From contig NZ_PKUQ01000042.1 in NCBI RefSeq assembly GCF_002866925.1, forward strand, positions 186,001 through 250,000: DNA of 64,000 bases. The letters are read 5' to 3'. This document shows, piece by piece, positions 28,276-59,967 of this stretch. The position numbers were made by a program, and so were the translations under genes. The stretch is from Cohaesibacter celericrescens (GTDB taxonomy: Bacteria > Pseudomonadota > Alphaproteobacteria > Rhizobiales > Cohaesibacteraceae). Every line of letters begins with the position of its first letter. Positions within the stretch are counted from its first letter, which is position 1. The notes beneath the pieces were generated by a model that saw only the letters and a program-made list of their open reading frames with translations, was not told the origin of the DNA and ran no database searches.

Positions 28276-28707
28276 AACACATGGTGGCACATAATTTGCG
28301 CTAACCTTACTCAGAGAGGCGGTAAAAATCCAATAGCCATTGTACATAAAGCGCAGATTTTCAACATATAGGCGTCATTTCTACCGTCTTCCCCATACAC
28401 CTATCCCAAAGGTGCAGCAGCCGCTCGTTGATGCAAGTCAACGCAATTACAGAGCAAAGCGACTAACAATTACGCGACCAAGTATTGGAGGACCAATCAG
28501 ATGAACTCGAGATTTCGGGACATTCAGCTGGGGTCGACATGACCGTCGCCCACAACCCCTACATACGCAGCAGCTAACAGAATATTATCGCCTGCGACCA
28601 TCCCATGGTCCACGGGCTTTGGCTGTATGCATCCAAATTTTTACATTTCAAATTAAGTCGACAATCGGCGGTGAGGCAAATTCCCGCCAGTTTATAATTG
28701 GGTGGAA
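28276..28707. other. Upstream region of the PFOR operon
   Basis: This 432-base region holds no convincing gene. It carries an FNR/FixK-type box at 28428-28441 and a possible -10 (TAACAA, 28464-28469) spaced as in class II FNR promoters, which would leave a leader of about 230 bases. Two overlapping mini-frames (28501-28542 and 28539-28577) begin after a GGAGGA but resemble nothing known. Confidence 0.5.
28428..28441 (+). promoter_or_regulatory. FNR/FixK-type box upstream of the PFOR operon
   Basis: TTGATGCAAGTCAA fits the FixK/FNR consensus TTGA-N6-TCAA perfectly. Its centre (28434.5) is 41.5 bases before a start predicted from the TAACAA at 28464-28469, the spacing of FNR-activated class II promoters. 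The same half sites (TTGAT and GTCAA) occur before the second 2-oxoacid oxidoreductase operon. Low-oxygen activation is inferred. Confidence 0.6.
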
Positions 28708-31700
28708 ATGATGAACGATAAGCTTCCTAAAGTGCCGGAGTTTCCCGGAATCTCAACAGTTATTCATGGCAATGGTGCCATTGCTCAAGTGATGAGCCAG
28801 ATCTGCGGCGGTGTTATCGGCTATCCGATCACGCCTTCAACTGAAATTGCCGAGCTTTACGAAGCCTTTCGCGCCAGTGGTGGCGAAAACATCTGGGGTA
28901 GACACCCCTTCTTCTTTGAACCCGAGGGGGAACATTCCGCACAATCCGGTGCGTTGGGTGCGGCACTGACCGGGGGACAGTATGTCTCTAACGCTTCATC
29001 CAGTCAGGGCATTCTATATGGTTTGGAATCCCACTATGTAACCGTTGGCAAGAAAGTTGGCGGTTTCGTCATGCAGATCGCGGCTAGGTCCGTGTCTCGA
29101 CACTCCCTTAATGTTATGGCCGGGCATGACGATGTTTATGCTCTTCTGCCGTCCGGCTACACCATCTTGTTTGGCTCCAACCCACAAGAAGCCGCCGACC
29201 TTGCTGCGATCTCCTATCGCGTCAGTGCAATGTCGATGATACCTGTGGCCAACGCCATGGATGGGTTTGTCACCAGCCACATGATGAGCGAAGTCTTGAT
29301 GCCCGAAGACGACCTGCTGCGTCGTTTTATCGGCGATCCGAACGATCAAATCCAATGCCCAACCGTTGCACAAGAAATGCTATTTGGTGCAAAGGGGCGG
29401 GTCTTCCAGCTCAAACGCTACCTTGGCCGCCACAGCACGGATCTGGAACCAGAAAATTATGCCAAGCTGATTGCTTTCATTGACGCCAATGCAAATGCAA
29501 TCGAAAAAGATGAAGAAGCCACTCTGGCAGCTGAGACTCTTTGCCTTCTCCCACAGGAACTGCATTCCCAGTGGCAGCGTCAGTGGCAGAACGCATATGA
29601 AAAAGGCACGCGCCAACGGGTCCCAGCTCAAGTGGACATCCACAATCCGGGCTTGACCGGCGGCGTTCAGAACCAACCAGATTTCCAAGCTGGCGCCGTT
29701 GACCACCGTACGCACTTTGTACGCGATGTTCCTCGCTTCGTCCGTGAAGCAATGGAAGAATATACCGCACTGACCGGTCGCTTTTATGCCCCAATCAAAT
29801 GCTTTGAATGCGATGATGCAGAAAGCGTCGTGATCGGCCTTGGTTCGGTCACTGATGATGCTGAAGCGGTTGCCTCCTATCTTCGTCGTCAAGGCAAAAA
29901 AGTCGGCGTTATCTCGATAAAGATGCTTCAGCCATTCCCTGAAGCCGAGTTGGTGGCTGTCCTGAAAGGCAAAAAAGCAGTTACTGTGCTAGAACGTTCT
30001 GACGTCACAGCGCTAACAAGCTTTGTCAATCAAGCACTTGTCAAAGCGGTCGAGAACTCCACTCAAGACCGGCATCCCGGCATTCCGGCCATGACACAAT
30101 TGCCAAAACTCACCACAGCTATCTTTGGTCTGGGGGCTCATGACTTGCAGCCACGCGATATGGTTGCCGCCTTTGAGAATATGGAAACAAGTGTTGCACC
30201 ACTGGTTTATCTGGGCACGCAATTCTTTTCTAAAAATCCAAGCCCTCGCATTAGCGAGCTGCAAGAGAAAATGCGCATTGCCTATCCCGAAACGGAACTG
30301 ATGGCTCTGCAAACCAAACCCAACCCACAATTGTTGCCCGAAGGCGCCCTACGCATCCGCTTCCACTCAGTTGGCGGCTATGGCACCATCGCCACAGGCA
30401 AGTTGCTCACCGACATTTTGGCCAACGCACTGCATTTACATTCCAAAGCTGCACCAAAATATGGCTCGGAAAAAAGCGGCGCACCAACCAACTATTACAT
30501 CACTCTCAGCCCTGAACCGGTAAAAATCACCAACGCAGACCTTGAAGATGTCGAAGTGGTGGTCTCCCCTGACCACAAGGTGTTTGCCCATAGCAATCCC
30601 CTGCGCGGATTGGTCGAAGGCGGTACATTTATTCTTCAATCAGGTCTCTCGCCATTTGAAGTCTGGAAGGAACTGCCTGAATCGGCGCGCGCCACCATCG
30701 TTAGCAAGAACATCCGCTTCTTCGTGCTCGACGGGTTCGCGATTGCCAAAAAACATGCACCAACTCCAGAGTTGGAAACCCGCATGATGGGCATTGCCTT
30801 CATCGGCGCTGTTTGTGGCAACGTAGAACGTGTTGCAGACGGGGCCGACGAAGCTGCAGTGCTTGAAAAGGTACGCACACAAATTGCTAAAAAGTTTGGT
30901 GGCAAAGGTGCTGCGATTGTCGATGGCAACATGGCCGTGATCCGCGATGGTGCGGAAGCAACCGTCGCTGTTGACTATTCGGCCCCTGACTATGCAGCCG
31001 TCACAGCCTCTCCTGACGAAGAACCACTTTTGACCGCTGCCATTTCAGCCTCGATGTGCCGCATTTCGAACGACTCGTCACCGATCGGCATGTTCGATCA
31101 TGATTATTATGAAGAAACCATGGCGGCCCCTTACCGGGCAGGCACCATTGGAGAAGCCCCTGTTCTGCCGGGCAGTGGCATGTATATGCCTTCCGGCACC
31201 GCTGCCGCTAAAGACAAAGGCATGTTCCGCCGCAATGTGCCGATCTTCAATCCAGATCTGTGCACCGGTTGTATGGAATGTACAATGGTTTGCCCAGATG
31301 CCGCCATTCCTGCGACGGTTCACGATATCGACGATCTGTTGATGACGGCTCTCAAAGAAGTCGAGATGCCAGCCGCCCAGCGTGAAGTGGTGCGCGAATA
31401 TGTACGCACAATAGGCAGCACAGTACGCAGCAAGCTTACAGCAAGCACGGACGCTCCTGTCTTTGCGGCTCTGGTGTCAGACGCTGTTGAAAACCTGTAT
31501 GTCGAAAATGCTGTCGTCAAAGGAAAACTGATCCAGATGGCGCAAGCTGTCGCCGTCCTTCCCGTTGCCAAAACGCGACCTTTCTTTACCTCTATGGAGA
31601 ATGCGCAAGCGGGAACCGGCGGGCTGTTCTCAGCCGTGGTCGATCCTTGGAAATGCTCAGGTTGTCTGGAGTGTATCGATGTTTGCGGCCCCGGCGCTTT

Positions 31701-33714
31701 GGCAGCCGTCGAACAAGACGCTCCGGTTCTTGAAAAACTACAGCAGGAATTCAACTTCCTGTCCAAGACCTCAAACACACCGGCTCGCTATGTCGACCCA
31801 GCGTTTGAACCCGGTGGCGACATCAAACAGATGATGCTGGATCGGGCCACTTATTATGCAACAACCGGTGGCCATGGTGCTTGCCGTGGCTGTGGTGAAG
31901 TTACCGCAATCCGGCAAGTTGTTTCAGCCAGCCATGCAATCCATGACCGACGCCTGAAGGGGCATATTCAGGAACTGGAAAGCCTGACCAAGGATCTAAA
32001 AGCCAAACTGATCCAGGTGTCTGGCGATACAGATCGCGCAGCACGCATCGCAAACACACTCAAAGTGCTGGAAAAACGCCTCTTTCTGATGGAAGGTGGG
32101 CCAACAGGTAACGGACCAGCTCCAATGGTGGTTGCCAACGCGACAGGTTGCAGCAGTGTTTATGCATCAACCTTCCCTTACAACCCTTACAATGACCCCT
32201 GGGTCAACAGCCTGTTCCAAGACGGGCCGGCTTTGACAAAAGGTATTTTTGAAGGATTGACCGCCCCAGCTGCTGTCGACTTTAAAGCCATGCGGGTTGC
32301 AAAACTCGAATTGGCGGATGCATACGATGCGGCGCATGATGATGCCCTGTTCAAAAACTTTGAATGGCTGCAATTCTCCACCGCAGAACGCTCATTGTTG
32401 CCAACAGTGATCAACATCAGCGGTGACGGTGCGGCTTATGACATCGGCTTCGGGGCTCTGTCTCGCCTCTTGGCCAGCAACACACCGGTAAAAGTGATGG
32501 TGCTGAACAGTGGTGTCTATTCCAACACCGGTGGCCAGACTTCAACCGCCAGCCTTTCCGGACAGGACAGTGACTTGTCCCGCTTTGGACCGGCCTTGTC
32601 GGGCAAACAGGAAGATCGTAAGGAACTCGGCCTAATCGCTGCTTTCCATCCCAATGTTTTGGTGGTGCAGAGCGCAACGTCAATGCCAAACCACTTCCTC
32701 AAAAACCTGATGATTTATCTGGAGCATAGTTCATCTCCTGCGTTGCTCGACGTTTACACCCCTTGCCAAGGGGAGCAGGGCATCGCCGATGATTTGGCGC
32801 ATCGTCGCAGCAAACTGGCTGTTGAAGCGCGCATCAGTCCGGTCTTCGTGCATAATCCAAATGCTGGTGAGACGCTTGAAGAACGCTTCTCGCTTGAGGG
32901 CAACCCTGCTGTCGATCAAGATTGGGCAACAAGAACACTCGAGTATGTTGAAGACGGCGCACTCAAGTTGATGGATGTGCCTTTGACACCGGCGGACTTT
33001 GCCTTTGAAGAAACCCGCTTCAAAAAACAGTTCCGTGTGTTGAAAGATACGACCAATGCGATCCCGGTTCATGAGTTCGTCAATCTGTCTCTCGAAGAAC
33101 GCAAAGGCAAATCGCCCTATGTTCTAACCACGAACAAAGAGCGCGCCCTTGTCATGCTCGAAGTGGGAACCACAGTGGTTCATCTGGTGGAAGAACGGCG
33201 TAAATATTGGCGCACGTTGCAACATCTTGCTGGGCAACATGTGGTGCAAATTGATGCATCCCATCATGCGGAAGTGGCTGCGTTGCAGCAAAGCTACAAC
33301 GAAGCAATCAATGCACGCGAAAGCACGATGGACAGCATCGCAACCGGCATGAGTGAACTTGCTGCGGCGTCCGCTGCGCCTGCTGCGGTTGGTGCTTTGG
33401 GTGCTCTGGCTCCAATTTCCCCAGTTAGTAATGGAGCAAATGCTTCCAACGGTGCGGTGGCTTCTGCGCCACCGGCGAACGGCTCTTCCATCCCGCACAT
33501 CCGCGAGGAGGACATGGCCCAGTGCACCGACTGCAAAACCTGTTATCAGGAAATCCCAGAGTTGTTCGAAGCAACCAAAATCATTGTCGATGGTAAAGCC
33601 AAAACCGTGGCCCACACCATTCCCGGTGCCTTGGAAACAGTTGAGATGACACCAGAACTCGCAGCCCGCCTTAAAAAGATTGTCGCCAATTGTGATGCGG
33701 AGATCCTGCGATGA
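28708..33714 (+). CDS. Pyruvate:ferredoxin oxidoreductase (NifJ-type) with extra C-terminal module and ferredoxin-like tail
   Basis: At 1668 residues this exceeds normal NifJ/PFOR (about 1170-1200) by over 450. In order it has an alpha domain with YPITPSTEIAEL (about residue 38), a gamma domain GGYGTIATGKLL (about 556), a 2[4Fe-4S] domain (CTGCMECTMVCP about 852, CSGCLECIDVCG about 983) and a beta/TPP domain. The latter shows HGACRGCGE (about 1054), GDGAAYDIG (about 1239), NSGVYSNTGGQ (about 1266) and YTPC, so it looks catalytically complete. The extension (about 1430-1668) has TPADFAFEETRFKKQF, SPYV, WRTLQHLAG, an Ala/Ser linker and CTDCKTC. It should oxidise pyruvate to acetyl-CoA and CO2 and pass electrons to the tail domain and the Nfn-like partner, whose gene overlaps by ATGA. 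The start could be GTG 28702 or ATG 28711 instead. Another 2-oxoacid substrate is possible. Confidence 0.88.
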   Translation: MMNDKLPKVPEFPGISTVIHGNGAIAQVMSQICGGVIGYPITPSTEIAELYEAFRASGGENIWGRHPFFFEPEGEHSAQSGALGAALTGGQYVSNASSSQGILYGLESHYVTVGKKVGGFVMQIAARSVSRHSLNVMAGHDDVYALLPSGYTILFGSNPQEAADLAAISYRVSAMSMIPVANAMDGFVTSHMMSEVLMPEDDLLRRFIGDPNDQIQCPTVAQEMLFGAKGRVFQLKRYLGRHSTDLEPENYAKLIAFIDANANAIEKDEEATLAAETLCLLPQELHSQWQRQWQNAYEKGTRQRVPAQVDIHNPGLTGGVQNQPDFQAGAVDHRTHFVRDVPRFVREAMEEYTALTGRFYAPIKCFECDDAESVVIGLGSVTDDAEAVASYLRRQGKKVGVISIKMLQPFPEAELVAVLKGKKAVTVLERSDVTALTSFVNQALVKAVENSTQDRHPGIPAMTQLPKLTTAIFGLGAHDLQPRDMVAAFENMETSVAPLVYLGTQFFSKNPSPRISELQEKMRIAYPETELMALQTKPNPQLLPEGALRIRFHSVGGYGTIATGKLLTDILANALHLHSKAAPKYGSEKSGAPTNYYITLSPEPVKITNADLEDVEVVVSPDHKVFAHSNPLRGLVEGGTFILQSGLSPFEVWKELPESARATIVSKNIRFFVLDGFAIAKKHAPTPELETRMMGIAFIGAVCGNVERVADGADEAAVLEKVRTQIAKKFGGKGAAIVDGNMAVIRDGAEATVAVDYSAPDYAAVTASPDEEPLLTAAISASMCRISNDSSPIGMFDHDYYEETMAAPYRAGTIGEAPVLPGSGMYMPSGTAAAKDKGMFRRNVPIFNPDLCTGCMECTMVCPDAAIPATVHDIDDLLMTALKEVEMPAAQREVVREYVRTIGSTVRSKLTASTDAPVFAALVSDAVENLYVENAVVKGKLIQMAQAVAVLPVAKTRPFFTSMENAQAGTGGLFSAVVDPWKCSGCLECIDVCGPGALAAVEQDAPVLEKLQQEFNFLSKTSNTPARYVDPAFEPGGDIKQMMLDRATYYATTGGHGACRGCGEVTAIRQVVSASHAIHDRRLKGHIQELESLTKDLKAKLIQVSGDTDRAARIANTLKVLEKRLFLMEGGPTGNGPAPMVVANATGCSSVYASTFPYNPYNDPWVNSLFQDGPALTKGIFEGLTAPAAVDFKAMRVAKLELADAYDAAHDDALFKNFEWLQFSTAERSLLPTVINISGDGAAYDIGFGALSRLLASNTPVKVMVLNSGVYSNTGGQTSTASLSGQDSDLSRFGPALSGKQEDRKELGLIAAFHPNVLVVQSATSMPNHFLKNLMIYLEHSSSPALLDVYTPCQGEQGIADDLAHRRSKLAVEARISPVFVHNPNAGETLEERFSLEGNPAVDQDWATRTLEYVEDGALKLMDVPLTPADFAFEETRFKKQFRVLKDTTNAIPVHEFVNLSLEERKGKSPYVLTTNKERALVMLEVGTTVVHLVEERRKYWRTLQHLAGQHVVQIDASHHAEVAALQQSYNEAINARESTMDSIATGMSELAAASAAPAAVGALGALAPISPVSNGANASNGAVASAPPANGSSIPHIREEDMAQCTDCKTCYQEIPELFEATKIIVDGKAKTVAHTIPGALETVEMTPELAARLKKIVANCDAEILR

Positions 33715-36467
33715 GTATTGAAATAACTAAAGAACAGGACGAACTGTTCCATATGCAACTGGATGTCTTGAAAAAGCATCTGGCGGCTGATCCAAAGTCA
33801 CTTAACAGTGTGTTTGTTGCCGATGGCACACAAGCAATGGCTTGGGAATTCCAGCAACCGGAAATCGGAGAACGCTTCATTAGCGTTCTCTGGAACCTGT
33901 TGCTGCGCGATGATGATATGAGCATCGTGTTGCAACGCTTCCTTTGGGATTTGCCTCTCAAGTTCAAACGCAAATTTATCAAAGCACTCGACACCCATTT
34001 GTCAGACCGCTACCCGATGTTCAAAGGCTTGTCTGTTGATTGGCCTGCAAACAACTACATCCCGCCCTATATCCGGCCGGCTGAAGATCGCAGCAAAGAT
34101 TTCGAGTTGGTCAATCAGGGCTATCTTGGTTATCAATCGTTGGGGTATAGCCTGCGTGAAGTGGACATGTTCGTTTGGTTGGAAGTGTTGCGCGACAAGC
34201 AATGCGAAGACAAGCCTTGCGAACTGGGCGTATTGATGGAACGCCATAGGAAAATGGAAAAGGTCGGCGGCTGTCCTGTCAAAATCCATATTCCCGAAAT
34301 GATCGACCTGATTGGCAAAGGCAAAATACGTCAAGCGCTGGAGCTCATCGAGTCTTGCAACCCCTTGCCGAATGTGACGGGACGCGTTTGCCCGCAAGAG
34401 CATCAGTGTCAGGGCGTGTGCAAACATACCAAACGGCCGATCGAAATCGGTCAAATCGAATGGTATTTGCCCGAGCATGAAAAACTCGCTGATCCAGATC
34501 GAATGGCAAAATATGCCGGCATTCCCAACCCTTGGGATCAGGCAGAGAAACCTCCCATTGCCGTGGTTGGGTCGGGCCCATCCGGCCTGATCAATGCCTA
34601 TCTGTTGGCGGTTGAAGGCTTTCCTGTCACTGTGTTCGAGGCATTCCATGAATTGGGTGGCGTGTTGCGTTACGGCATCCCCGAATTCCGGTTACCCAAC
34701 AGCCTGATTGATGATGTTGTAGCCAAAATCGATGCCCTTGGCGGCAGATTTGTCAAAAATTTTGTGGTCGGTAAAACAGCCACATTGGACGATCTGAAAG
34801 AAGCTGGTTTCTGGAAAATCTTTGTTGGCTCCGGTGCAGGTCTTCCCACTTTCATGAATGTACCGGGCGAGCATTTGCTCGGTGTGATGTCAGCCAATGA
34901 GTTCCTGACCCGCGTCAACCTGATGCGCGGTCTGGATGCATCCTATGAAACGCCACTGCCCGATGTAAAAGACAAAAACATCCTGATCATCGGTGGTGGC
35001 AACACCGCAATGGACGCCGCCCGCACAGCCAAACGTCTTGGCGGTAATGTCACCATCGTCTATCGCCGGACTCAATCGGAAATGCCCGCCCGCGTGGAAG
35101 AATTGCATCACGCGTTGGAAGAAGGCATTGGACTGGCCGAGCTGCGTGGCCCTCGTGAATTTATCGGGGATTCTCATACGCACTTTGTCACGCACGCACT
35201 TGTCGATGTAAATGAGTTGGGTGAAGCCGATGCCTCTGGTCGTCGTCGTCCGGTAGCAACAGGCGAGACCATTCGTATGCCTGCCGATCTGGTGATCATG
35301 GCGCTTGGCAACAAGTCCAATCCGATTATTCCAGCCTCGGAGCCAGGTCTCAAACTCAGCAAATGGGGAACGATCGAAGTCGAAGAGGGCAGCCAAGAAA
35401 CCTCCATTGCCGATGTTTATACCGGTGGCGATGCCGCTCGCGGCGGCTCAACTGCTATTATGGCTGCAGGCGATGGTCAAGCCGCTGCGCGTGAGATTGT
35501 CGGTGACATCACGTTCGATGCGGAAACCATTCGCAACATGGTCCAGAAAGCTGACTATTACACTGGTCTGGGTCAGGAAGATCAGGCCATCCTCAAACAC
35601 TCAAGCCTTGCCTCTGGCATTGTCGAAATGACGGTCCGAGCACCGGTTGTGGCACGGTCGGCCAAAGCTGGGCAATTTGTGCGGGTTTTGGCAACTGACG
35701 ATGGCGAACTGATCCCTCTGACATTGGCTGATTGGAACGAAGAAGCCGGTACCATTGATCTGGTTATTCAGGGAATGGGAACCTCGACAAAATTGATGAA
35801 CCAAATGGCTGTTGGCGACGCTTTTGCTGGTATCGCCGGCCCACTTGGATCTCCAAGCCATGTGCAATCATTTGCGGAAGATGAAACCGCTGTGTTTGCC
35901 GCCGGCGGTGTTGGGTTGCCTGCCATCTACCCCATTGCCAAAGCCCATCTGGAAATCGGCAATCATGTGACCATGATCATCGGCTTCCGCTCAGCGGATC
36001 ACCTTTTCTGGACAGGAGACGACGAGCGCATGGGCCTGTTAAAAGCCCAATATGGCGACAAACTTGATGTGATCTATTGCTCCAATGATGGCACCTTTGG
36101 CATCAAAGGCTTTGTCACCACGCCGCTGGAAGAAATGCTTAAAGCAGGCAACATTTCCAATGGTCGCAAAATTGCCGAAGTCATCTCGGTTGGACCGCCA
36201 ATGATGATGCGCGCAGTCAGCGATATGACCAAACCATATGGCGTTCCAACGGTTGTCAGCCTCAATTCCATTATGGTGGATGCCACCGGCATGTGCGGGG
36301 CCTGTATGGTGCCTGTACTGGAAGATGGCAAATCTCTCCGCCTGCACGCATGTATTGACGGACCAGAGTTCAACGCCCACAGCGTAGAATGGGACAAGTT
36401 TATGCCGCGTTTCAACCAGTTCAAAACGCAGGAAGTGCGCAGTATGGAGCTTCACGGTCTCAACTGA
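33711..36467 (+). CDS. Fused NfnB-NfnA-type flavoprotein (NAD(P)H/ferredoxin oxidoreductase) with novel N-terminal domain
   Basis: This 918-residue protein has an unrecognised helical N-terminal part (residues 1-160). A GltD/NfnB-like unit follows: GGCPVKIHIP (about 186), GRVCPQEHQCQGVC (about 224), FAD motif VVGSGPSGLINAYLLA (about 284), NAD(P) motif IIGGGNTAMDAARTAKRLGG (about 424) and YTGGDAARGG (about 570). A DHOD-B/NfnA-like unit ends it: AGQFVRV (about 653), FAAGGVGLPAIYP (about 731) and the [2Fe-2S] loop GMCGAC...HACIDGPEF (about 860). Known NfnAB couples NADH, NADPH and ferredoxin by electron bifurcation as two proteins; here they are fused. The first Fe-S site is altered (CEDKPCE spacing; CGRVC has become TGRVC). 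Coupling to the PFOR gene suggests one complex making NAD(P)H. Confidence 0.85.
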   Translation: MSIEITKEQDELFHMQLDVLKKHLAADPKSLNSVFVADGTQAMAWEFQQPEIGERFISVLWNLLLRDDDMSIVLQRFLWDLPLKFKRKFIKALDTHLSDRYPMFKGLSVDWPANNYIPPYIRPAEDRSKDFELVNQGYLGYQSLGYSLREVDMFVWLEVLRDKQCEDKPCELGVLMERHRKMEKVGGCPVKIHIPEMIDLIGKGKIRQALELIESCNPLPNVTGRVCPQEHQCQGVCKHTKRPIEIGQIEWYLPEHEKLADPDRMAKYAGIPNPWDQAEKPPIAVVGSGPSGLINAYLLAVEGFPVTVFEAFHELGGVLRYGIPEFRLPNSLIDDVVAKIDALGGRFVKNFVVGKTATLDDLKEAGFWKIFVGSGAGLPTFMNVPGEHLLGVMSANEFLTRVNLMRGLDASYETPLPDVKDKNILIIGGGNTAMDAARTAKRLGGNVTIVYRRTQSEMPARVEELHHALEEGIGLAELRGPREFIGDSHTHFVTHALVDVNELGEADASGRRRPVATGETIRMPADLVIMALGNKSNPIIPASEPGLKLSKWGTIEVEEGSQETSIADVYTGGDAARGGSTAIMAAGDGQAAAREIVGDITFDAETIRNMVQKADYYTGLGQEDQAILKHSSLASGIVEMTVRAPVVARSAKAGQFVRVLATDDGELIPLTLADWNEEAGTIDLVIQGMGTSTKLMNQMAVGDAFAGIAGPLGSPSHVQSFAEDETAVFAAGGVGLPAIYPIAKAHLEIGNHVTMIIGFRSADHLFWTGDDERMGLLKAQYGDKLDVIYCSNDGTFGIKGFVTTPLEEMLKAGNISNGRKIAEVISVGPPMMMRAVSDMTKPYGVPTVVSLNSIMVDATGMCGACMVPVLEDGKSLRLHACIDGPEFNAHSVEWDKFMPRFNQFKTQEVRSMELHGLN

Positions 36468-36493
36468 TCTTTTTGGACATCACCAAGCTCAAC

Positions 36494-36534
36494 CGCCGGA
36501 TAGTTGCACTTCAGTGCGATTGTCCGGCGTTTTT
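36494..36534 (+). terminator. Rho-independent terminator of the PFOR-Nfn operon
   Basis: CGCCGGA (36494-36500) pairs with TCCGGCG (36523-36529), and an inner stem (TGCACT with AGTGCGA) extends it; TTTTT follows at 36530-36534. It lies 27 bases after the Nfn-fusion stop. Confidence 0.9.
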
Positions 36535-36610
36535 GTTGCATATCTGACGCGCACGCAAATATGAGTCATTTTTTTATCGATTTGAGTCGTAATTCTATTT
36601 AGGAATTCGA

Positions 36611-36616: not shown

Positions 36617-36673
36617 ATGCTTGATGTCTGGTTGGGTGCACTATGCGAGACGATGAGTAGGAGAGTTTTGAGT

Positions 36674-38629: not shown

Positions 38630-38683
38630 CCCGGCGCATTTTGATTTGCGTGACCATATCTTCAATCCCTGCCTGAGGCCTTA

Positions 38684-52274: not shown

Positions 52275-53264
52275 ATGTCCGATCGCAAACCTGAGGGCGG
52301 TCGAACGACCGACGCGCCTGTAAAATCCCACCAGCCCTTTGCTGATGGTGATGCTGTTGCGTGTTTTCCAATTGTCTCGCGAACTGATTTTTCCGAGACA
52401 ACTTTTTTGCTCGAAATTCACCACCCGATGATGGCCAAGGCGGCGAAGCCGGGGCAATTTGTCATTGTCATGGTCAATGAACACGGGGAACGTGTTCCTC
52501 TAACCATCGCCGATTTTGATCGCGTTAAGGGTACCATTACGCTGGTTGTGCAAGCGGTTGGAAAATCCAGTCGCGAGATGCAGGACGCGTGTCAGGTTGG
52601 TGGATCGATTTTTGCGATTGTTGGCCCGATGGGCATTCCTAGCGAAGTCTCCAACGCCAAAAAGGTGATTTGTGTGGGCGGCGGCTTGGGTGTTGCCCCC
52701 ATCTTTCCGCAAGCGCGTGCCTTCAAAGAAGCCGGTGCTTATGTAATCGGTGTCGTCGGCTTTCGCTCAGCCAATTTGATGTTCTGGGAGGAAAAATTCA
52801 AATCGGTTTGTGATGAATTTGTTGTTTGTACGGATGACGGCTCGGCTGGCATCCACGGATTGGTAACCCAAGGCATAGAGCAGGCCATCATCGCCCATGG
52901 CGACATTAATGAGGTGGTCGCAATCGGACCACCTATTATGATGCGCGCCTGTGCCGAGACAACGCGCCCGCACAAAATCAAAACCATGGTCAGCCTCAAC
53001 CCCATTATGGTGGACGGAACCGGCATGTGTGGGGGTTGCCGAGTGCGTGTAGCAGATCGCATCAAATTTGCCTGCGTAGATGGTCCCGATTTTGACGGTC
53101 ATGCCGTCGACTTTGACGATCTATTGTCCCGTCTTCATCGCTATAAACCGGAAGAAAAGCAGGCAATGGAACGCTACTCAGACAGTTGTCGCCGTTTGTC
53201 GCTTGATCCAACCAAAGCCAATGATACAGGCACCCAAACAGCCATCGAAACGGGGGGACAGTAA
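52275..53264 (+). CDS. NfnA-like ferredoxin-NAD(P) oxidoreductase subunit
   Basis: The 329-residue protein matches the DHOD-B/NfnA family. It has an FAD-binding barrel (KPGQFVIVMVNEHGERVPLT, about residue 60), a pyridine-nucleotide site (CVGGGLGVAPIFPQA, about 134) and the [2Fe-2S] loop GTGMCGGCRV with FACVDGP (about 249-268). A C-terminal tail of about 40 residues exceeds ordinary NfnA. ATG 52275 has a strong GGGAGG. It ends directly against the NfnB-like ATG (TAAATG), so the two should form a complex. In known NfnAB this subunit exchanges electrons with NAD(H). Confidence 0.87.
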   Translation: MSDRKPEGGRTTDAPVKSHQPFADGDAVACFPIVSRTDFSETTFLLEIHHPMMAKAAKPGQFVIVMVNEHGERVPLTIADFDRVKGTITLVVQAVGKSSREMQDACQVGGSIFAIVGPMGIPSEVSNAKKVICVGGGLGVAPIFPQARAFKEAGAYVIGVVGFRSANLMFWEEKFKSVCDEFVVCTDDGSAGIHGLVTQGIEQAIIAHGDINEVVAIGPPIMMRACAETTRPHKIKTMVSLNPIMVDGTGMCGGCRVRVADRIKFACVDGPDFDGHAVDFDDLLSRLHRYKPEEKQAMERYSDSCRRLSLDPTKANDTGTQTAIETGGQ

Positions 53265-54773
53265 ATGGCCCGCAAAACAATTCGGACCATTCCGCAGGAA
53301 CGCGCGGTTATGTCGGTTCAAGACCCTGAGGTGCGTTCCAAAAACTTTGATGAAGTGTCGCATGGCTTTGATCTGGAAAATGCCATGCTGGAATGCGAAC
53401 GCTGTTTGATGTGTCCGGAACCGGCCTGTATCGCAGGGTGTCCGGTCAGCATAGACATCCCCGGTTTCATCGCCAAAATGCTCGAGAAAGACCATCGCGG
53501 CGCCTATGATCTGCTTACCGACTCCACACAGCTGCCCGCCGTATGCGGCCGGGTTTGCCCTCAAGAAGATCAGTGCGAAGGCGTATGTGCCGTTGGTGTC
53601 GGGACTGATCTGGAACCGGTGGCCATTGGCCGTCTGGAACGTTTTTTAGGCGACATGGCCATCGAAAAAGGTTGGCAAAAGACAAGCCATATCGTCGCCA
53701 ACCGGTTCCGTGTTGCCATTGTCGGGTCAGGGCCTGCCGGTATGGCTTGCGCCGCAGATTTAGCCAAAGCGGGTTGCTCTGTCACCATCTACGAAGCGCT
53801 GCATGCCCCAGGCGGCGTGCTACGGTACGGCATCCCTGAATTTCGCCTCCCCAATACCGTGGTTGACGCAGAAATTGCCAACCTCAAAGCGCTTGGGGTT
53901 GAGTTCCAGTGCAACATACTGGTCGGCCGACTGTTTACCATCGAACAGATGCTCGACGACATGGGGTTTGATGCGGTCTTCATAGGGGTTGGAGCGGGAA
54001 CGCCGCATTTCATGGATATTCCAGGTGAGAATCTCAATGGGGTTCTCTCCGCCAACGAACTGCTGACCCGTTGTAATTTGATGCATGCAGGTGAATTCCC
54101 CAAATATGACACGCCACTGGGACTTGGTCGCCGTGTCGCGGTGATTGGGTCTGGCAATACGGCGATGGATGCCATGCGGGTTTCCTTGCGGTTGGGAGCT
54201 GAAGAAGTGCATTGCGTTTATCGGCGCTCCGAAGTGGAATGCCCAGCACGTCGCGAAGAATTACACCATGCCCAAGAAGAAGGTGTCACCTTCCATTGGC
54301 TGACCAATCCGGTCGAATTGCTGGGAGATGCTGATAACAATGTTCGCAGTATCCGCTGCATTCAGATGGAACTGGGTGAGCCCGATGCATCGGGCCGCAG
54401 GCGCCCCGTGCCTGTGGCCGGTAGCGAGTTCGACTTTGATGCAGACACGGTGGTCTATGCCATTGGCACATCGCCCAACCCAATTTTGGGCCAAACCTCT
54501 CATATTGGTCTGAACAAATGGGGCTATATCGATACCGATGACAGCCTCGCCACATCCTTGGCCGGTGTGTATGCCGGAGGCGATATTGTGACCGGCGCTG
54601 CCACCGTTATTCAAGCGATGGGCGCAGGCCGCAAAGCGGCGGACAGCATCCGGCGATATCTCGGAATTCGCTCTTCAGGCGTGGTCTATAAACCCGAGCA
54701 ATCCGGGTTTGATGGCAGCCTGTTTGGCATTGATCTTGCCGAGCAAAATTTTAACCGTATTCGACTGACCTGA
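53265..54773 (+). CDS. NfnB-like (GltD-related) NADPH-ferredoxin oxidoreductase subunit
   Basis: The 502-residue protein has two complete N-terminal [4Fe-4S] motifs (CERCLMCPEPACIAGCP about residue 44, CGRVCPQEDQCEGVC about 93), an FAD motif AIVGSGPAGMACA (about 151), GVLRYGIPEFRLP, NADP motif AVIGSGNTAMDAMR (about 291) and a final FAD contact YAGGDIVTGAATVI. Unlike the fused version at 33711, both Fe-S sites are intact. NfnB carries the bifurcating FAD in characterised enzymes. It lies between nfnA-like and korA in a tight operon, so I infer electron exchange between the 2-oxoacid oxidoreductase and NAD(P). Confidence 0.88.
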   Translation: MARKTIRTIPQERAVMSVQDPEVRSKNFDEVSHGFDLENAMLECERCLMCPEPACIAGCPVSIDIPGFIAKMLEKDHRGAYDLLTDSTQLPAVCGRVCPQEDQCEGVCAVGVGTDLEPVAIGRLERFLGDMAIEKGWQKTSHIVANRFRVAIVGSGPAGMACAADLAKAGCSVTIYEALHAPGGVLRYGIPEFRLPNTVVDAEIANLKALGVEFQCNILVGRLFTIEQMLDDMGFDAVFIGVGAGTPHFMDIPGENLNGVLSANELLTRCNLMHAGEFPKYDTPLGLGRRVAVIGSGNTAMDAMRVSLRLGAEEVHCVYRRSEVECPARREELHHAQEEGVTFHWLTNPVELLGDADNNVRSIRCIQMELGEPDASGRRRPVPVAGSEFDFDADTVVYAIGTSPNPILGQTSHIGLNKWGYIDTDDSLATSLAGVYAGGDIVTGAATVIQAMGAGRKAADSIRRYLGIRSSGVVYKPEQSGFDGSLFGIDLAEQNFNRIRLT

Positions 54774-54789
54774 AGAGCGGGACACAGCA

Positions 54790-56718
54790 ATGACTTCGGA
54801 TGGCATTCACACATACGCCAACAACAAACCACTTTACGATGCTGGCCTGATCGGTATCGCAAACAATCAACCGCCTGAGGCAATTGTTCTTGACGAACAT
54901 ATAGTCGAGATCGTCAGCGATTCCGGTGAAGGAGCACAGAGATGTGGTCAATCGCTGGCGGCAATCGCAGCCCGTTCAGGCAACGGTATCTGGACGGTCG
55001 AGATTATTCCGGCCGAAATTCAGCCACCACAACGCTCTGTTGCAGGAGCCAGCGGCAATCGGGTTCGCATGGCTGCCCACAAGGTGACCAACGTCGGAGA
55101 CGAGGCTGATCTGGTCGTTGCCTTCAATGAACAAGTGTTGCTCAGCCGCCTGCGCGCCGGTGAAATCAAACAGGGTGCCACAATCCTGATTGAGGAGATG
55201 TGGAAGGCAGATGGCAACCCCAAGATCGTCGCCGCCTATGACGCGGTGGTGGCCGAAGTGCGGGCCGCAGGCTATCGCCTGTATGAAATTCCGATGGAGG
55301 CCGAGTGCCAGAAATATGTGCCAGACCCGCGCAAGGGCAAGAATATGTTCGTTCTGGGCATGTTGTGCGCCATCTATAGTCTTGATGAAGCATTGTCTCA
55401 GGCGCAGGTCGGACTGACCTTTGCCAAAAAGGACCAGAAAATCATCAATGCCAATCTGGAGCTATTGGCCGCAGGGCGGGCATGGGCCGACACCAATCTT
55501 GACCTGAAATATAAGATCCCCGCCCCCGCTGTTGAAAAGCCCCAAATTGTGACCAATGGCAATGCAGCCCTAGCCTTGGGCGTGGTCGCATCGGGCATGG
55601 AAGTCTGTGCGATGTATCCCATCACACCGGCAACATCGGCGTCGCATTATCTATCCAGCATCTTTGAAAAAGTTGGCTGTGTTGTCCATCAGGCAGAGGA
55701 TGAAATAGCTGCGGCGACGTTTGCCATCGGCGCATCCTATGCCGGCAAATGCGCGGTCACGATCACATCGGGGCCGGGATTGTCACTCAAACAAGAAGCT
55801 TTGGGCTTGGCAGTGATGACTGAAATCCCGCTAGTGGTGATCAATGTCCAGCGCGGTGGACCAAGCACCGGCCTGCCAACCAAGGTGGAACAGGGCGACT
55901 TGATGGCAGCCATGTTTGGTGGCCACGGCGACGCACCGAAGATCGTGATGGCAGTGGATTCCATCGAGGATTGCTTTTACTCGGTCATCACGGCGCGCAA
56001 GATCGCAGAGACCTTTAATATGGTGGTTGTGATCCTGTCCGATGCGGCCTTGTCTACTGCACAGCAACCCTTTGACCGGCCCAATTTCAACGCCGCTTGG
56101 CTGGCTCCTCCTGTCAACCAAAGCGCCGTACCAGAAGACGCTCGTCCCTATGATTGGGATGAACGCACAGGCATCGCGACACGGTTCATTCCCGGCCAAC
56201 CCAATGGCATGCATTGCCTGACCGGCCTTGCGCATGATCGGGACAGCCATGTGGCCTATGACCCCAAAATCAACGAAGAGGGACTGCTGAACCGCAGTCG
56301 CAAACTTGCTGCCTTCCAAACAACATTAAGGCTGGCACCTGTCTTTGGCGGGGAGGATGGCGAGTTGCTGCTGATCGGTTGGGGCAGCACCCGCGGCGCC
56401 ATTGAGGAAGCCGTCACAGCCATGCGAGCCAAAGGACACGCAGTGTCTTCGCTGCATTTGAAATATCTCCAGCCAATGGCATCGGGGATCGACGAAGTGA
56501 TGCGCCGCTTTGGTACGGTGATGACCATTGAAAACAACTGGAATGATCCAAAGGATGATCCTTTGATCACACCTGATAACCGGCGTTATTCCCAACTGGC
56601 CATGTTGTTGCGATCCCGCTGGCTGGTCGATGTGGATTGTTGGGGGAACGCGCGCGGTCAACCGCTAAAACCTGCCGCAATCATCAAGGCCGCACTAAAC
56701 AAACTTGGAAAGGCATAG
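54790..56718 (+). CDS. korA: 2-oxoacid:acceptor oxidoreductase alpha subunit (gamma-alpha fusion, KorA-type)
   Basis: The 642-residue subunit has an N-terminal gamma domain (SGEGAQRCGQSLA about residue 47, IPAEIQPP about 76) joined by a linker (about 240-258) to the alpha domain. The latter has MYPITPATSASHYL (about 275), TSGPGLSLK, RGGPSTGLPTKVEQGDL (about 355) and LKYLQPM near the end. This gamma-alpha form with a separate beta subunit is typical of 2-oxoglutarate:ferredoxin oxidoreductases, which convert 2-oxoglutarate plus CoA to succinyl-CoA. Substrate is inferred from architecture, so other 2-oxoacids are possible. It is 16 bases after nfnB-like and 9 before korB. Confidence 0.87.
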   Translation: MTSDGIHTYANNKPLYDAGLIGIANNQPPEAIVLDEHIVEIVSDSGEGAQRCGQSLAAIAARSGNGIWTVEIIPAEIQPPQRSVAGASGNRVRMAAHKVTNVGDEADLVVAFNEQVLLSRLRAGEIKQGATILIEEMWKADGNPKIVAAYDAVVAEVRAAGYRLYEIPMEAECQKYVPDPRKGKNMFVLGMLCAIYSLDEALSQAQVGLTFAKKDQKIINANLELLAAGRAWADTNLDLKYKIPAPAVEKPQIVTNGNAALALGVVASGMEVCAMYPITPATSASHYLSSIFEKVGCVVHQAEDEIAAATFAIGASYAGKCAVTITSGPGLSLKQEALGLAVMTEIPLVVINVQRGGPSTGLPTKVEQGDLMAAMFGGHGDAPKIVMAVDSIEDCFYSVITARKIAETFNMVVVILSDAALSTAQQPFDRPNFNAAWLAPPVNQSAVPEDARPYDWDERTGIATRFIPGQPNGMHCLTGLAHDRDSHVAYDPKINEEGLLNRSRKLAAFQTTLRLAPVFGGEDGELLLIGWGSTRGAIEEAVTAMRAKGHAVSSLHLKYLQPMASGIDEVMRRFGTVMTIENNWNDPKDDPLITPDNRRYSQLAMLLRSRWLVDVDCWGNARGQPLKPAAIIKAALNKLGKA

Positions 56719-56727
56719 GGGAGAGAT

Positions 56728-57720
56728 ATGACCGCTTCAATGAGTCAATGTCTGATGCAGATGGTGCATACTGACTATGCCATCAAGGATTATCAGAGCG
56801 AAATTGCGCCCCGCTGGTGTTCTGGCTGTGGCGATACCGGCATTCTCACCGCCATGCAACGTCTGTGCAGGGATGAGCAGTTGCCACCCGAGAAAACCGT
56901 TTGTGTTTCGGGCATCGGATGCGCTTCACGTTTGCCCCATTATATGAATGCCTATGGCTTTCACGGTATCCATGGCCGCGCATTGCCCATCGCCGAAGGG
57001 ATCAAAATCCGAAGACCGGATCTGAATGTATTTGTGACCACAGGAGACGGCGATTGTTGTTCCATTGGTGCGGCCCACTGGCTGCATGCGGTGCGCTACA
57101 ACATGAACATGACCATGCTGTTGCATGACAACAATGTCTATGGCCTGACAAAAAAGCAGGCCTCTCCCACATCACCCAAAGGCTTTAAAAGCAATACCAC
57201 ACCGTTCGGGGCAACTTTGGCACCGCTAAATCCATTAACGGTGACATTGGGTGTTTCCAATGTTTCCTTTGTGGCACAAGTGGTCGACTGGATCCCCGAG
57301 CTGCTCTATGAAGTCTTGTCCAAGGCCTATCACCACAAAGGATTTTCTTTTGTGCGCATTTTGCAACGATGCCCCAATTTCATGGAACATCATTTTGATG
57401 AGGCCGTGCGTGATCCGCTCAAAACCCGCATTCTGACCCATCAGAACGGGTTGCGATTGAAACCGGAAATTTCGCGGGTCTACAAGAACCAAGAGACCCA
57501 TGATCCGCTGGATATGACACGCGCTTTGGCGCTTGCTGCCCTTGGCGAAGAAATCCCAGTGGGCATCCTTTATGCCAATCCTACCGTGCCTTGCTATGAC
57601 GAATTACGCGCAGGTGAACGCCCCAGTACACCTGCATTGGTTGAAACGGTTCTGAACGAAGAGTTTGATAAAATCGGCATTTGGCCAACAGACGCTTCAT
57701 CGGCACAAGGCGGGGAGTGA
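56728..57720 (+). CDS. korB: 2-oxoacid:acceptor oxidoreductase beta subunit (KorB-type)
   Basis: This 330-residue TPP-binding subunit is complete: four probable [4Fe-4S] ligands C31, C34, C65 and C215 (WCSGCGDTG, GIGCASRLP, ILQRCPNF), TPP motif GDGDCCSIG (about residue 107) and NNVYGLTKKQASPTS (about 135), with YGFHGIHGRALPIAEGIK between. It forms the catalytic core with KorA. There is no separate ferredoxin gene; the next gene encodes a protein with a ferredoxin-like tail, the likely acceptor. GGGAGAG precedes the start. Confidence 0.89.
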   Translation: MTASMSQCLMQMVHTDYAIKDYQSEIAPRWCSGCGDTGILTAMQRLCRDEQLPPEKTVCVSGIGCASRLPHYMNAYGFHGIHGRALPIAEGIKIRRPDLNVFVTTGDGDCCSIGAAHWLHAVRYNMNMTMLLHDNNVYGLTKKQASPTSPKGFKSNTTPFGATLAPLNPLTVTLGVSNVSFVAQVVDWIPELLYEVLSKAYHHKGFSFVRILQRCPNFMEHHFDEAVRDPLKTRILTHQNGLRLKPEISRVYKNQETHDPLDMTRALALAALGEEIPVGILYANPTVPCYDELRAGERPSTPALVETVLNEEFDKIGIWPTDASSAQGGE

Positions 57721-57726
57721 TCGGTT

Positions 57727-59967
57727 ATGCAAAATACTCAATTCGCACAAAATAACGTCTCCCCAATGGCCCCACAAACCATGAATGACACACAATTGAC
57801 CACGCTCAAACCAGCGCTTTTTGCCCGTTATGGAGCGCTGGAAAACCTCCGCTATGACTATCCACTGGTCTTGGTAGACAGCGAAGATCAAGCCAACCTG
57901 CTACGCCCGCTTAGTCGGATTATCGATGACGTACTCAGGGCTGTTGCGCCACAAGGTCCATCGGGTGAAGAGCTGCGTCAACAGGTTCTAAGCCTTGAAC
58001 AACGTATGCGGGAGTATGTGTCGCAAGGACGAGAGGAAAATCTCTCGGACCTATGGCATTTGTGTGAAATGGAATTGGTGGAGGAAAGCGGCGAAGACCG
58101 CTTTGGTCCGCTTGATCAAAACCTTGACCTTGCCCGCCAGAAAATCAAAGTTGACGGCAAAGTCATTGGCTGCGACGGATCCACGCCCAGCAAGATTCTT
58201 TCCCACAGTTGGAAAGCCATGCACAAATTCAGGGCGCGCCGCTTTCGCAACAAGGTGGACGGATTGATTCTGAGACTGACAGACATCCTCAAATCCGACC
58301 ATATGAAATCTGAAGAAGCTCATGGTGCCACAGCGCTTGCCGCTTCAATGGGAGCAGATGGAGACGGTTCAATTGATTTTTCCGCCCTGTCAGGAGTCTT
58401 GCATCGCGCCCGCCCTGAAGACCGTTTACCCACGGATCGCGTGGCGCGGATCAAACATGCTATGCGCGTGCTGCAGTCCCAGGCTTTCTTTGGTCCCGGA
58501 CGCGCGTCCTACAGCGAACCCGGACATGCGGTCTGCTACAATTATGTCTTCAAAAGCTGTTCTGAAGCACTCGACGCCTATCGGGAACGTTTACCCAGCA
58601 TGGTTGACTTCACCAAAGCGTTGACTATTGCCGAATTGGAAGTCGATAACAAATATGTGTCGTCGCTGCATGACACAATTTTTGATCGTTTTGATGAAAG
58701 CGACCTGACGGCGGAACAAATGGATCTGTTGCCTCCAGCGATGATCTATTTGCGTGACGGCATCACAGACTCGGCCGAAATCGCCCGCGTGTATGAAGCG
58801 CTTGCGTGTGGACTGCCGATCAAGGTGTTGATCCAGATTGATGATATTTTGGGCCCAACATCACCAGAGCCTCCGCTCAACTCCTTTGGGGCAGGCACAG
58901 CACGACTGGCCACGATGGCGATAGGGCTCAACAATGCTTTTGTGATGCAAACCACAAGTGCCCATCTTTATCGCATGCGGGATTCCCTGATGCACGGCAT
59001 GCAATATGGCGGGCCTGCTGTATTCAGCCTCTATTCTGGAGCGACCGCAACCGCGCCCGATATCCCGCCTTATATTCTGGCAGCCGCAGCCACCGAATCC
59101 CGAGCTTTCCCCAATTTCACCTTTGATCCCTCTGCTGGCACCAATTGGGCCGGACGGTTCGACCTCTCCCAAAACCCGCAGAACCTGACTGATTGGCCAG
59201 AGCATGACTTGCTGTATGAGGACCAAGCAGGCAACAGCAAAACGGAACACATGGCTTTCACCTTTGGTGATTTTGCAATCTGTGACAGCCGCTATCGCCG
59301 GTTCTGTCATGAGGTTCCTCGCACACAATGGCGTGGCGACATGGTGCCATTGGCTGACTGGCTCAAGGTGCCAAAAGACTCAAACGACATCCAGAGCCCT
59401 TATGTATTTGGTGTTGAAAGCGACAAGCAATTGCTAAGGGTCGTTGTCGACGACAAGATCATCAGTGCAGCACGACGGTGCAATGACGCTTGGGGTAGGT
59501 TGCAGGAACTGGCAGGCATCAACAATTCACATGCGCAGGCACTATTGGCAGAAGAGCGGAAAAAACGCGAAGCTCTGGCGCGGGAATTGGCAGCCAATGT
59601 TGCGGCTGCGCCCGTGTTTCCTGCTGTGCCTGTCGCGGCATCGTTACCCGTTGCACCTGCAGCGGGTGAAGCGGCGCCAGAAATCCAGCCAGAAGCATCA
59701 GAGGATCCAGACCATTCAGACGGACTTGCATGGATCGAAACGCCTCGTTGCACCACCTGCAATGAATGCACTCAGGTCAGCAATACGTTGTTTGCCTATA
59801 ATGAAAATATGCAAGCCTATGTGAAGGACCCCGATGGTGGTACCTACCGGCAACTTGTGGAGGCAGCAGAAAGCTGTCAGGTCAGCATCATTCACCCCGG
59901 ACTGCCGCGCAATCCTGACGAGCCGGATCTGGAAGACCTGATGCAAAGAGCCGAAATATTCAATTGA
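57727..59967 (+). CDS. Pseudo-PFOR scaffold protein with shared C-terminal ferredoxin-like module
   Basis: I do not know a name for this 746-residue protein. Residues 1-300 are mainly helical with coiled-coil tendency. Residues about 335-500 read like the last part of a PFOR beta domain (DGITDSAEI, LPIKVLIQID, FVMQTTSA, PAVFSLYSGA, ESRAFPNF), but GDG is RDG, the TPP loop NSGVYSNTGG is gone and the YTPC cysteine is YSGA. Residues about 513-600 match the extension of the giant PFOR (GDFAICDSRYRRF, SPYVFGV, WGRLQELAG). An Ala/Pro linker (about 622-665) leads to CTTCNECTQVSNTLF and a final ESCQ cysteine. I infer a non-catalytic scaffold carrying electrons from KorAB to the Nfn pair. Confidence 0.6.
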   Translation: MQNTQFAQNNVSPMAPQTMNDTQLTTLKPALFARYGALENLRYDYPLVLVDSEDQANLLRPLSRIIDDVLRAVAPQGPSGEELRQQVLSLEQRMREYVSQGREENLSDLWHLCEMELVEESGEDRFGPLDQNLDLARQKIKVDGKVIGCDGSTPSKILSHSWKAMHKFRARRFRNKVDGLILRLTDILKSDHMKSEEAHGATALAASMGADGDGSIDFSALSGVLHRARPEDRLPTDRVARIKHAMRVLQSQAFFGPGRASYSEPGHAVCYNYVFKSCSEALDAYRERLPSMVDFTKALTIAELEVDNKYVSSLHDTIFDRFDESDLTAEQMDLLPPAMIYLRDGITDSAEIARVYEALACGLPIKVLIQIDDILGPTSPEPPLNSFGAGTARLATMAIGLNNAFVMQTTSAHLYRMRDSLMHGMQYGGPAVFSLYSGATATAPDIPPYILAAAATESRAFPNFTFDPSAGTNWAGRFDLSQNPQNLTDWPEHDLLYEDQAGNSKTEHMAFTFGDFAICDSRYRRFCHEVPRTQWRGDMVPLADWLKVPKDSNDIQSPYVFGVESDKQLLRVVVDDKIISAARRCNDAWGRLQELAGINNSHAQALLAEERKKREALARELAANVAAAPVFPAVPVAASLPVAPAAGEAAPEIQPEASEDPDHSDGLAWIETPRCTTCNECTQVSNTLFAYNENMQAYVKDPDGGTYRQLVEAAESCQVSIIHPGLPRNPDEPDLEDLMQRAEIFN

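Follow-up and report, generated by a model that had tools for sequence, protein, structure and literature searches.

What carries the electrons from one enzyme to the next when a genome encodes, twice over, a 2-oxoacid oxidoreductase beside an Nfn-type transhydrogenase? The question is raised by a stretch of 64,000 nucleotides from Cohaesibacter celericrescens (RefSeq assembly GCF_002866925.1, contig NZ_PKUQ01000042.1, positions 186,001 to 250,000; hereafter the window, in which all coordinates are given). Locus 1 (28702-36467) consists of the genes for a PFOR-like protein, PFORx, and a fused NfnB-NfnA protein, NfnBA, and locus 2 (52275-59967) has the order nfnA-nfnB-korA-korB-P746, the last gene being named for the length of its product. 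Nfn, PFOR and KorAB, as well as Rnf, are known kinds of enzymes. Judging from their sequences, the two loci most likely represent a family of 2-oxoacid oxidoreductases in which a ferredoxin arm provides a fixed connection to a single acceptor, Nfn in this case and Rnf elsewhere. A preliminary description of the window had proposed the pairing of oxoacid oxidoreductase and Nfn, and its gene content and coordinates agree with the open reading frames and family assignments. The idea itself appears partly supported, gaining from conservation across genomes while the roles of its parts are redefined: a ferredoxin is built into both systems, and the family is wider than Nfn, with relatives in rnf clusters.

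The sequence of PFORx suggests an enzyme that has diverged strongly in its core while keeping its signature residues. Its score against the NCBIfam PFOR model TIGR02176 is 389.5 bits and does not reach the curated cut-off of 911.35, and we regard it as a divergent PFOR-like protein. In the family alignment of 23 rows, the cluster cysteines 854/857/860/864, 985/988/991/995 and 1061/1064/1150/1355 are unsubstituted in 21-22 rows, the remainder being gaps, and the same holds for D1242, N1275 and G1278, which we take to form the thiamine pyrophosphate (TPP) motif, their roles here and in P746 being assigned by assumption. The catalytic-core signature, that is, the TPP motif with the four nearby cluster cysteines C1061, C1064, C1150 and C1355, is thus intact. 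Behind the core follow an accessory module, a linker and a one-cluster ferredoxin, whose cysteines C1608, C1611, C1614 and C1664 are present in 22 of the 23 rows, with a gap in the remaining one. In 14 aligned C-termini the linker is variable in both length and sequence and the four ferredoxin cysteines are invariant. A single genome of the home genus (G627; L141, G627:C2:58000-71000, at 3991-8977) has PFORx split over two frames, which is a frameshift of either the gene or the assembly.

What is P746, a protein in which Pfam recognizes nothing apart from the ferredoxin at its C-terminus and for which NCBIfam gives no match? It had been labelled scaffold-like, and a generic scaffold is ruled out by a profile match to one half of PFORx that begins near residue 138; for the most part P746 is a PFOR half that has degenerated and bears a ferredoxin, not an unrelated protein. 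BLASTP aligns residues 236-689 of P746 with 1110-1622 of the window's own PFORx (E 2e-23), and profile-profile comparison of the two gives a probability of 99.9 (E 2.2e-35), which bears out the earlier observation of an extra C-terminal module common to both loci. Comparison by hhalign with the C-terminal half of four PFORs from rnf clusters, described below, gives a probability of 100 (E 2.9e-73) over 599 columns, from residue 138 of P746 to its end, placing P746 nearer to the Rnf-type than to the Nfn-type PFORx by profile. At the TPP site, RDG stands in place of GDG, the NTGGQ stretch is replaced, and only one of the four TPP-proximal cluster cysteines (C149) aligns. Because the TPP motif and three of the four cysteines are gone in a protein homologous to PFORx from residue 138 on, we consider P746 to be a half of PFORx that has lost its catalytic function. 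It retains the accessory module, an Ala/Pro-rich linker (66% A/P/G/S/T/E/Q, compared with 45% in the whole protein) and the one-cluster ferredoxin, whose cysteines C675, C678, C681 and C717 are present in 21 of 21 rows; the P746 of G196 (L040), of which there is only an N-terminal part with 37% identity, falls below the 40% identity filter and is left out of this count. Residues 669-745 share 58% identity with the Gemmatirosa counterpart. Since PFORx and P746 both keep the linker and the one-cluster ferredoxin, a tethered ferredoxin is a feature of both systems. Within the P746 family, residues 1-137 are conserved as well.

A tree of 24 C-terminal sequences, sampled from P746 (9 of 22), Nfn-type PFORx (6 of 22), Rnf-type PFORx (5 of 5) and the split PorB proteins introduced below (4 of the 10 opened), recovers each of the four kinds as one group, with support of 100/100, 100/99, 98/94 and 100/100, respectively. 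The possibility that P746 is a branch inside the Rnf-type PFORx was discarded, as P746 stands apart there as a group of its own. The profile score would favour an origin of P746 from the Rnf type; the tree does not fix the parent type, because it is midpoint-rooted and the P746 stem is long.

Which part of the shared C-terminal region distinguishes these proteins from other oxidoreductases? A profile of module, linker and ferredoxin matches 49 of 398 genomes of the phylum at E 1e-8. The match is full-length in 11 of them, namely the own genome, eight genomes of a genus labelled g276, G492 and G579, and in the other 38 it is confined to the first ~80 positions of the module. In all ten short-match loci that were opened (L075-L084, including two second copies carried by g276 genomes), the match lies in a PorB of ~550 residues that adjoins a PorA of ~680 residues and has no C-terminal ferredoxin. 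The module was therefore rejected as a feature unique to the two systems, its first ~80 positions occurring in the PorB of split enzymes, so it is the linker with the ferredoxin, here called the arm, that sets PFORx and P746 apart. Split PorAB enzymes with a partial-module PorB are widespread (38 genomes), and g276 carries split PorAB besides PFORx.

The oxidoreductase encoded beside P746 is of the two-subunit KorAB type. KorA scores 510.6 bits against TIGR03710 (cut-off 482.75), and its best match in the Protein Data Bank (PDB) is 6n2n_A, a 2-oxoglutarate enzyme, with which its YPITP motif and the stretch VQRGGPSTGLPTK align; we regard it as carrying the features of a two-subunit 2-oxoacid oxidoreductase. 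The roles assigned to the Thr of YPITP and to a carboxylate-binding Arg follow PMC5020499. KorB has a TPP_enzyme_C match and scores 246.4 bits against TIGR02177, under the cut-off of 261.9 bits. Pfam finds no Fer4 match in either subunit, i.e., no internal ferredoxin domain. In G053 (L038, 14927-18846), two more genes come after nfnAB-korAB-P746, one PorA-like and the other GltD-like with a two-cluster ferredoxin domain; together they perhaps encode another 2-oxoacid oxidoreductase.

On the acceptor side, the ligand sets of Nfn serve as a guide: Asp-Cys3 at the [2Fe-2S] cluster of NfnA and Glu-Cys3 at one [4Fe-4S] cluster of NfnB, according to PMC8097209. NfnBA scores 1707 bits against NF009415 (cut-off 1519), with the NfnB part at residues 185-596 and the NfnA part at 627-913, and has both sets (D857, C862, C865, C881 and C188, C227, C233, E250) in 22 of 22 rows. 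The four-Cys signature of the distal [4Fe-4S] cluster known from characterized (Pattern A) enzymes is not found: Asp162 replaces the first cysteine of the set in all 22 rows, as assigned from the alignment of RDKQCEDKPC in the window with RCLQCPTHPC in 4ylf_B, and the stretch before the next Cys motif is longer. The distal ligands are assigned from related structures. A cluster remodelled in this way would be consistent with electrons arriving from another source than free ferredoxin. In locus 2, the Asp-Cys3 residues of NfnA (D284, C289, C292 and C304 in the numbering of the frame from 52164), assigned by alignment with 5jca_S and 4ylf_A, are invariant in 19 of 19 rows. NfnB, with 559 bits against 4ylf_B, keeps all eight ligand positions (C47, C50, C55, C59, C98, C104, C108, E125) in 20-21 of 21 rows, the rest being gaps; how these residues are divided between the clusters is our assumption. 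The NfnA parts of both loci are nearer to NfnI than to NfnII (300 versus 160 bits and 227 versus 127 bits).

Do these genes belong together beyond a single genome? Co-occurrence of the gene sets elsewhere had been set beforehand as a check on the preliminary description, and it is observed for both loci. P746 occurs in five genomes of a 240-genome sample of the class (own included), in four further contigs (two Aliiruegeria, Tropicimonas and a Kiloniellaceae bacterium) and in 13 further genomes of the home genus, which makes 22 loci. KorB lies directly upstream of P746 in 22 of 22, and KorA (21/21), NfnB (21/21) and NfnA (19/19) are present wherever the DNA reaches the gene, with constant order and strand. 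The NfnBA family exceeds its cut-off in 9 of the 398 genomes of the phylum, the own genome and eight of g276, a genus of another class, and PFORx lies directly upstream of NfnBA in all nine. Within the home genus, NfnBA follows PFORx in 13 of 13 other genomes, bringing the total to 22 of 22 Nfn-type loci. The home-genus PFORx loci were found by the arm profile and not via NfnBA; the g276 loci were first found through NfnBA, and the arm profile detects them independently, matching at E 1e-25 in 8 of 48 genomes of their class, all eight of them g276. The two arms also travel together: among 18 genomes of the home genus, 14 have both, four have neither (one of these is 64% complete and counts little) and none has a single arm. 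Simple counting puts the chance of such a perfect match at 1 in 3060, a figure that is a guide only, the genomes being related. In 13 of these 14 genomes, both arm-coding stretches are on a single contig at a distance of ~16-50 kb, on the same strand in the window's genome and on opposite strands in the 12 others. Locus 2 occurs without a close NfnBA as well, E 1e-180 being passed only by the own genome in the 240-genome class sample. Because NfnBA and arm-profile matches outside the home genus and g276 are few (among 43 genomes outside the home genus the arm profile has one match, G643), both systems are rare and patchy. Spread of NfnBA by plasmids was considered and dropped, with no match among 72,556 plasmid records at E 1e-100.

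The arm is not restricted to partners of the Nfn type. Five other tethered-ferredoxin PFORs were found, all in rnf clusters and distributed over three phyla: in Persicobacter (L029), in Gemmatirosa (L030) and in the Pseudomonadota genomes G492 (L073), G579 (L074) and G643 (L128). PFORx lies between rnfB and rnfC in four of the five, Gemmatirosa and the three Pseudomonadota sharing the order rnfB-PFORx-rnfC-rnfD-rnfE-rnfA, and in Persicobacter PFORx is directly followed by rnfC, rnfD, rnfE and rnfA, with an rnfB-like gene downstream of these. In Gemmatirosa, rnfB is preceded by korA and korB, whose products are 57% and 51% identical to KorA and KorB of the window; the whole series korA, korB, rnfB, PFORx, rnfC, D, E, A stands together on plasmid 1 of Gemmatirosa kalamazoonensis (1.1 Mb; L030, 1170-16540). 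Altogether, 27 tethered-ferredoxin PFORs were found and read, 22 beside NfnBA, 5 in an rnf cluster and none alone. The strongest argument for an arm dedicated to one acceptor is that all 27 adjoin NfnBA or lie in rnf clusters.

Could the electrons nevertheless pass through the free ferredoxin pool? An ordinary PFOR or 2-oxoglutarate oxidoreductase (KGOR) would then cooperate with an ordinary Nfn, the C-terminal ferredoxin would hand electrons to soluble ferredoxin, and the clustering of the genes would reflect co-regulation. PFOR and Nfn are commonly linked in this manner, and a PFOR gene is named among the neighbours of some nfn genes in the Fig. 2 legend of PMC6405883 (Liang et al. 2019), a review. 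The genome also contains, besides the POR_N proteins of the two loci, a third one with a 1209-residue open frame, which is the size of a separate classic PFOR. These points have to be set against a pairing that is specific in all 22 loci of either kind, the retention of a dead PFOR half together with its module, linker and ferredoxin, and the switch of partner to Rnf in the five other loci. We consider a free-pool connection unlikely.

Under what conditions might the systems be used? A TTGAT-N4-GTCAA box had been reported upstream of both loci and taken as a sign of FNR-type control, and there are indeed exactly two occurrences in the window, one before each operon. With one mismatch allowed, 11 sites compare with 6.4 expected, and 7 of 100 shuffles reach 11, which is no clear enrichment of the window; the whole genome has 24 exact sites versus 4 for the reversed control pattern. 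Two site pairs among the 24, on contigs C1 and C46 of the own assembly (G000), have the same sequences and the same spacing of 17,928 bp, which, with the 7.95% contamination figure of the assembly, suggests that these contigs are duplicated. Stronger evidence than such counts comes from conservation across the genus. A box TTGAT-N4-(A/G)TCAA with 9-10 of 10 matches lies 264-299 bp upstream of the start used in 14 of 14 home-genus PFORx loci. Boxes with at least 8 of 10 matches precede 18 of 19 locus-2 copies with upstream DNA, the window's included; L037, L123 and L125 have 8, and L039 is without a box. The L037 score is reached by 8% of shuffles and is not significant alone, the shuffle controls covering one of the two box surveys. 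L011 and L013 have a box that is perfectly palindromic. The idea that FNR controls locus 1 in general was abandoned, the box upstream of PFORx being conserved in the home genus and missing in the distant g276.

The boxes would be expected to bind FNR. The genome has 18 matches to Crp/Fnr-family genes, 8 of them over the cut-off, and one such gene (L145) encodes cysteines 26, 29, 37 and 125, a pattern that we take to be that of an oxygen-sensing FNR. There are also five strong E1 dehydrogenase genes, one with a frame of 1029 residues (SucA size), and the genome probably encodes the usual aerobic 2-oxoacid dehydrogenases; in this setting it would make sense to have two substitutes for low oxygen, for pyruvate and for 2-oxoglutarate, respectively. 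The enzyme class is reversible in principle, and the same proteins could conceivably run backwards, with NAD(P)H reducing the arm for acyl-CoA carboxylation by a pyruvate or 2-oxoglutarate synthase. No carbon-fixation set was found among the neighbouring genes scanned (a genome-wide pathway search was not made), and the FNR-type boxes and E1-type dehydrogenase genes fit oxidation at low oxygen better, which makes the reverse use very improbable.

How, then, might the electrons travel? We propose that in each locus a 2-oxoacid oxidoreductase releases its electrons via a ferredoxin domain, tethered by an Ala/Pro-rich and supposedly flexible arm, and that a dedicated Nfn receives them. The PFOR core of locus 1, probably acting on pyruvate, would reduce its own clusters and then the one-cluster ferredoxin of the arm, which would dock on the remodelled distal cluster of NfnBA. 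In locus 2, KorAB, probably acting on 2-oxoglutarate and having no ferredoxin domain of its own, would be served by P746 as a catalytically dead adaptor that extends a ferredoxin arm to NfnAB. Nfn would reduce NADP, most likely by confurcation with NADH, giving the net reaction 2-oxoacid + CoA + NADH + 2 NADP+ -> acyl-CoA + CO2 + 2 NADPH. In the home genus, both systems would probably be switched on by an FNR-type regulator and replace the lipoate-type dehydrogenases at low oxygen, and relatives of the same arm would feed Rnf. We regard this mechanism as a whole, with its tethered arm, dedicated Nfn, P746 adaptor and confurcation, as more probable than not. The more complete formulation, in which a swinging-ferredoxin-arm family is hard-wired to Nfn or Rnf, P746 is a pseudoenzyme adaptor between KorAB and Nfn, and confurcating transhydrogenases yield two NADPH per 2-oxoacid, is tentative and falls slightly short of an even chance.

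Another possibility is a direct, non-bifurcating coupling of 2-oxoacid oxidation to NADP (or NAD), similar to the three-subunit 2-oxoglutarate:NADP+ oxidoreductase (KGOR) of Azoarcus evansii with extra subunits. NfnB is a GltD-like NADP module, and the Azoarcus enzyme consists of a KorA-like, a KorB-like and a GltD-like FAD/[4Fe-4S] subunit, the last for NADP. Against such coupling stands NfnA, found with its ligands conserved in 19 of 19 locus-2 copies that reach the gene, and we think it somewhat unlikely. Several observations also weigh against the tethered-arm mechanism itself. The core of PFORx is so far under the PFOR cut-off (389 versus 911 bits) that pyruvate as its substrate is a guess, and at the distal cluster of NfnBA an Asp replaces one Cys. 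Residues 1-137 of P746 (57727-58140) match neither Pfam nor the PFORx profile, and P746 sits on its own long branch outside the Rnf group in the midpoint-rooted tree. The flexibility of the arm is deduced from its composition and length variation, and synteny is no proof of contact. None of six g276 regions upstream of PFORx has a box with at least 9 matches, and two have 8, a value that 20-24% of shuffles reach. Finally, confurcation cannot be derived from homology, because P. furiosus NfnII, a close relative, appears to be non-bifurcating (PMC8097209).

The features of both loci are listed in Table 1. The start of nfnA set mechanically at 52164 falls within the box, which makes 52275 the better start. 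The genes between the loci encode TamA-like and TamB-like proteins, a mannitol-type dehydrogenase, a short-chain dehydrogenase and an ABC transporter, and seem unrelated to both systems; the TamA-like (Omp85/POTRA) and TamB-like genes come after locus 1, at 36617-42679.

Table 1. Features of the two oxidoreductase loci in the window
Feature	Position	Strand	Remarks
FNR/FixK-type box TTGATGCAAGTCAA	28428-28441	+	274 bp upstream of PFORx start 28702
PFORx	28702-33714	+	1670 residues; PFOR-like core, accessory module, linker and C-terminal one-cluster ferredoxin
In-frame ATG	28708		PFORx start given in the preliminary description
PFORx Ala/Pro/Gly/Ser-rich linker	33334-33510	+	residues 1545-1603; 71% A/P/G/S/T/E/Q versus 48% in the whole protein
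PFORx tethered one-cluster ferredoxin	33523-33714	+	Fer4_15 match at residues 1604-1667
Fused NfnB-NfnA (NfnBA, Pattern C type)	33711-36467	+	918 residues; start overlaps the PFORx stop codon
FNR/FixK-type box TTGATCGGTGTCAA	52157-52170	+	118 bp upstream of nfnA (52275)
NfnA-like, FAD/NAD and [2Fe-2S] subunit	52275-53264	+	
NfnB/GltD-like, FAD, NADP site and two [4Fe-4S] clusters	53265-54773	+	
KorA-like subunit of two-subunit 2-oxoacid oxidoreductase	54790-56718	+	
KorB-like beta subunit with TPP site	56728-57720	+	
P746	57727-59967	+	746 residues; PFORx C-terminal half from ~residue 138, apparently TPP-dead; linker; one-cluster ferredoxin

If the proposed mechanism is true, low-potential electrons from pyruvate and 2-oxoglutarate need not travel by way of free ferredoxin; for facultative bacteria this could be of importance, since oxygen reacts with the free reduced form. 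Rnf would also gain a candidate for a direct donor of electrons, and P746 would be a dead enzyme half seemingly turned into an electron-transfer adaptor. The Pattern C Nfn would gain a concrete partner and a testable reaction; in the 2019 review, this homologue is flagged as needing attention and the fused patterns are described as uncharacterized in detail (PMC6405883). Among the literature matches listed, mostly open-access, none describes P746, a PFOR with a tethered ferredoxin or an rnf cluster that contains a PFOR, and a PFOR-Nfn or PFOR-Rnf unit is likewise undescribed there, apart from the figure legend cited above. Given that legend, we claim no novelty for the adjacency of PFOR and nfn as such. 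An Rnf/Nqr review, in its excerpted text, does not contain the word PFOR and names no PFOR as part of an rnf cluster (PMC12174285).

How do these systems compare with those already known? PFORx has the domains and cluster cysteines of PFOR (PDB 1b0p, 6cin) and differs from it in a long region between the two internal clusters; its linker and one-cluster ferredoxin are without counterpart in the ten split PorAB enzymes opened, the class of enzyme that g276 also carries. Relative to the Azoarcus evansii KGOR, locus 2 has two additional components, NfnA and the arm-bearing P746, a distinction drawn by description and not by sequence. In the pyruvate:NADP+ oxidoreductase of Euglena, a PFOR is likewise joined firmly to an NADP reductase, with no free ferredoxin between them; there the partner is a fused cytochrome P450 reductase-like domain, whereas the PFORx system would use Nfn and a ferredoxin arm. 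Both loci share the two parts and ligand signatures of P. furiosus NfnI and T. maritima NfnAB. NfnBA departs from characterized Nfn in adjoining PFORx (22 of 22) and in having D162 for a distal Cys with an insertion after it. It matches the Pattern C Nfn of Alpha-/Gammaproteobacteria and Actinobacteria, which is fused, with the NfnA part C-terminal, and ~200 residues longer (PMC6405883). Rhodopseudomonas palustris requires AadN, a Pattern B fused Nfn, to degrade aromatic compounds, and korAB is found in strains without it; like NfnBA it is a fused Nfn, it is tied to one pathway, and unlike NfnBA it has its NfnA part first and no PFOR partner described in the excerpt (PMC9973337). In ANME-1 archaea, the module FrhB6 within PFOR gene clusters is another acceptor module, of the F420 type (PMC9012536), and may be a further hint of PFOR-dedicated acceptors. 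The swinging ferredoxin arm, as we propose it, would do for redox transfer what the lipoyl arm does in pyruvate dehydrogenase.

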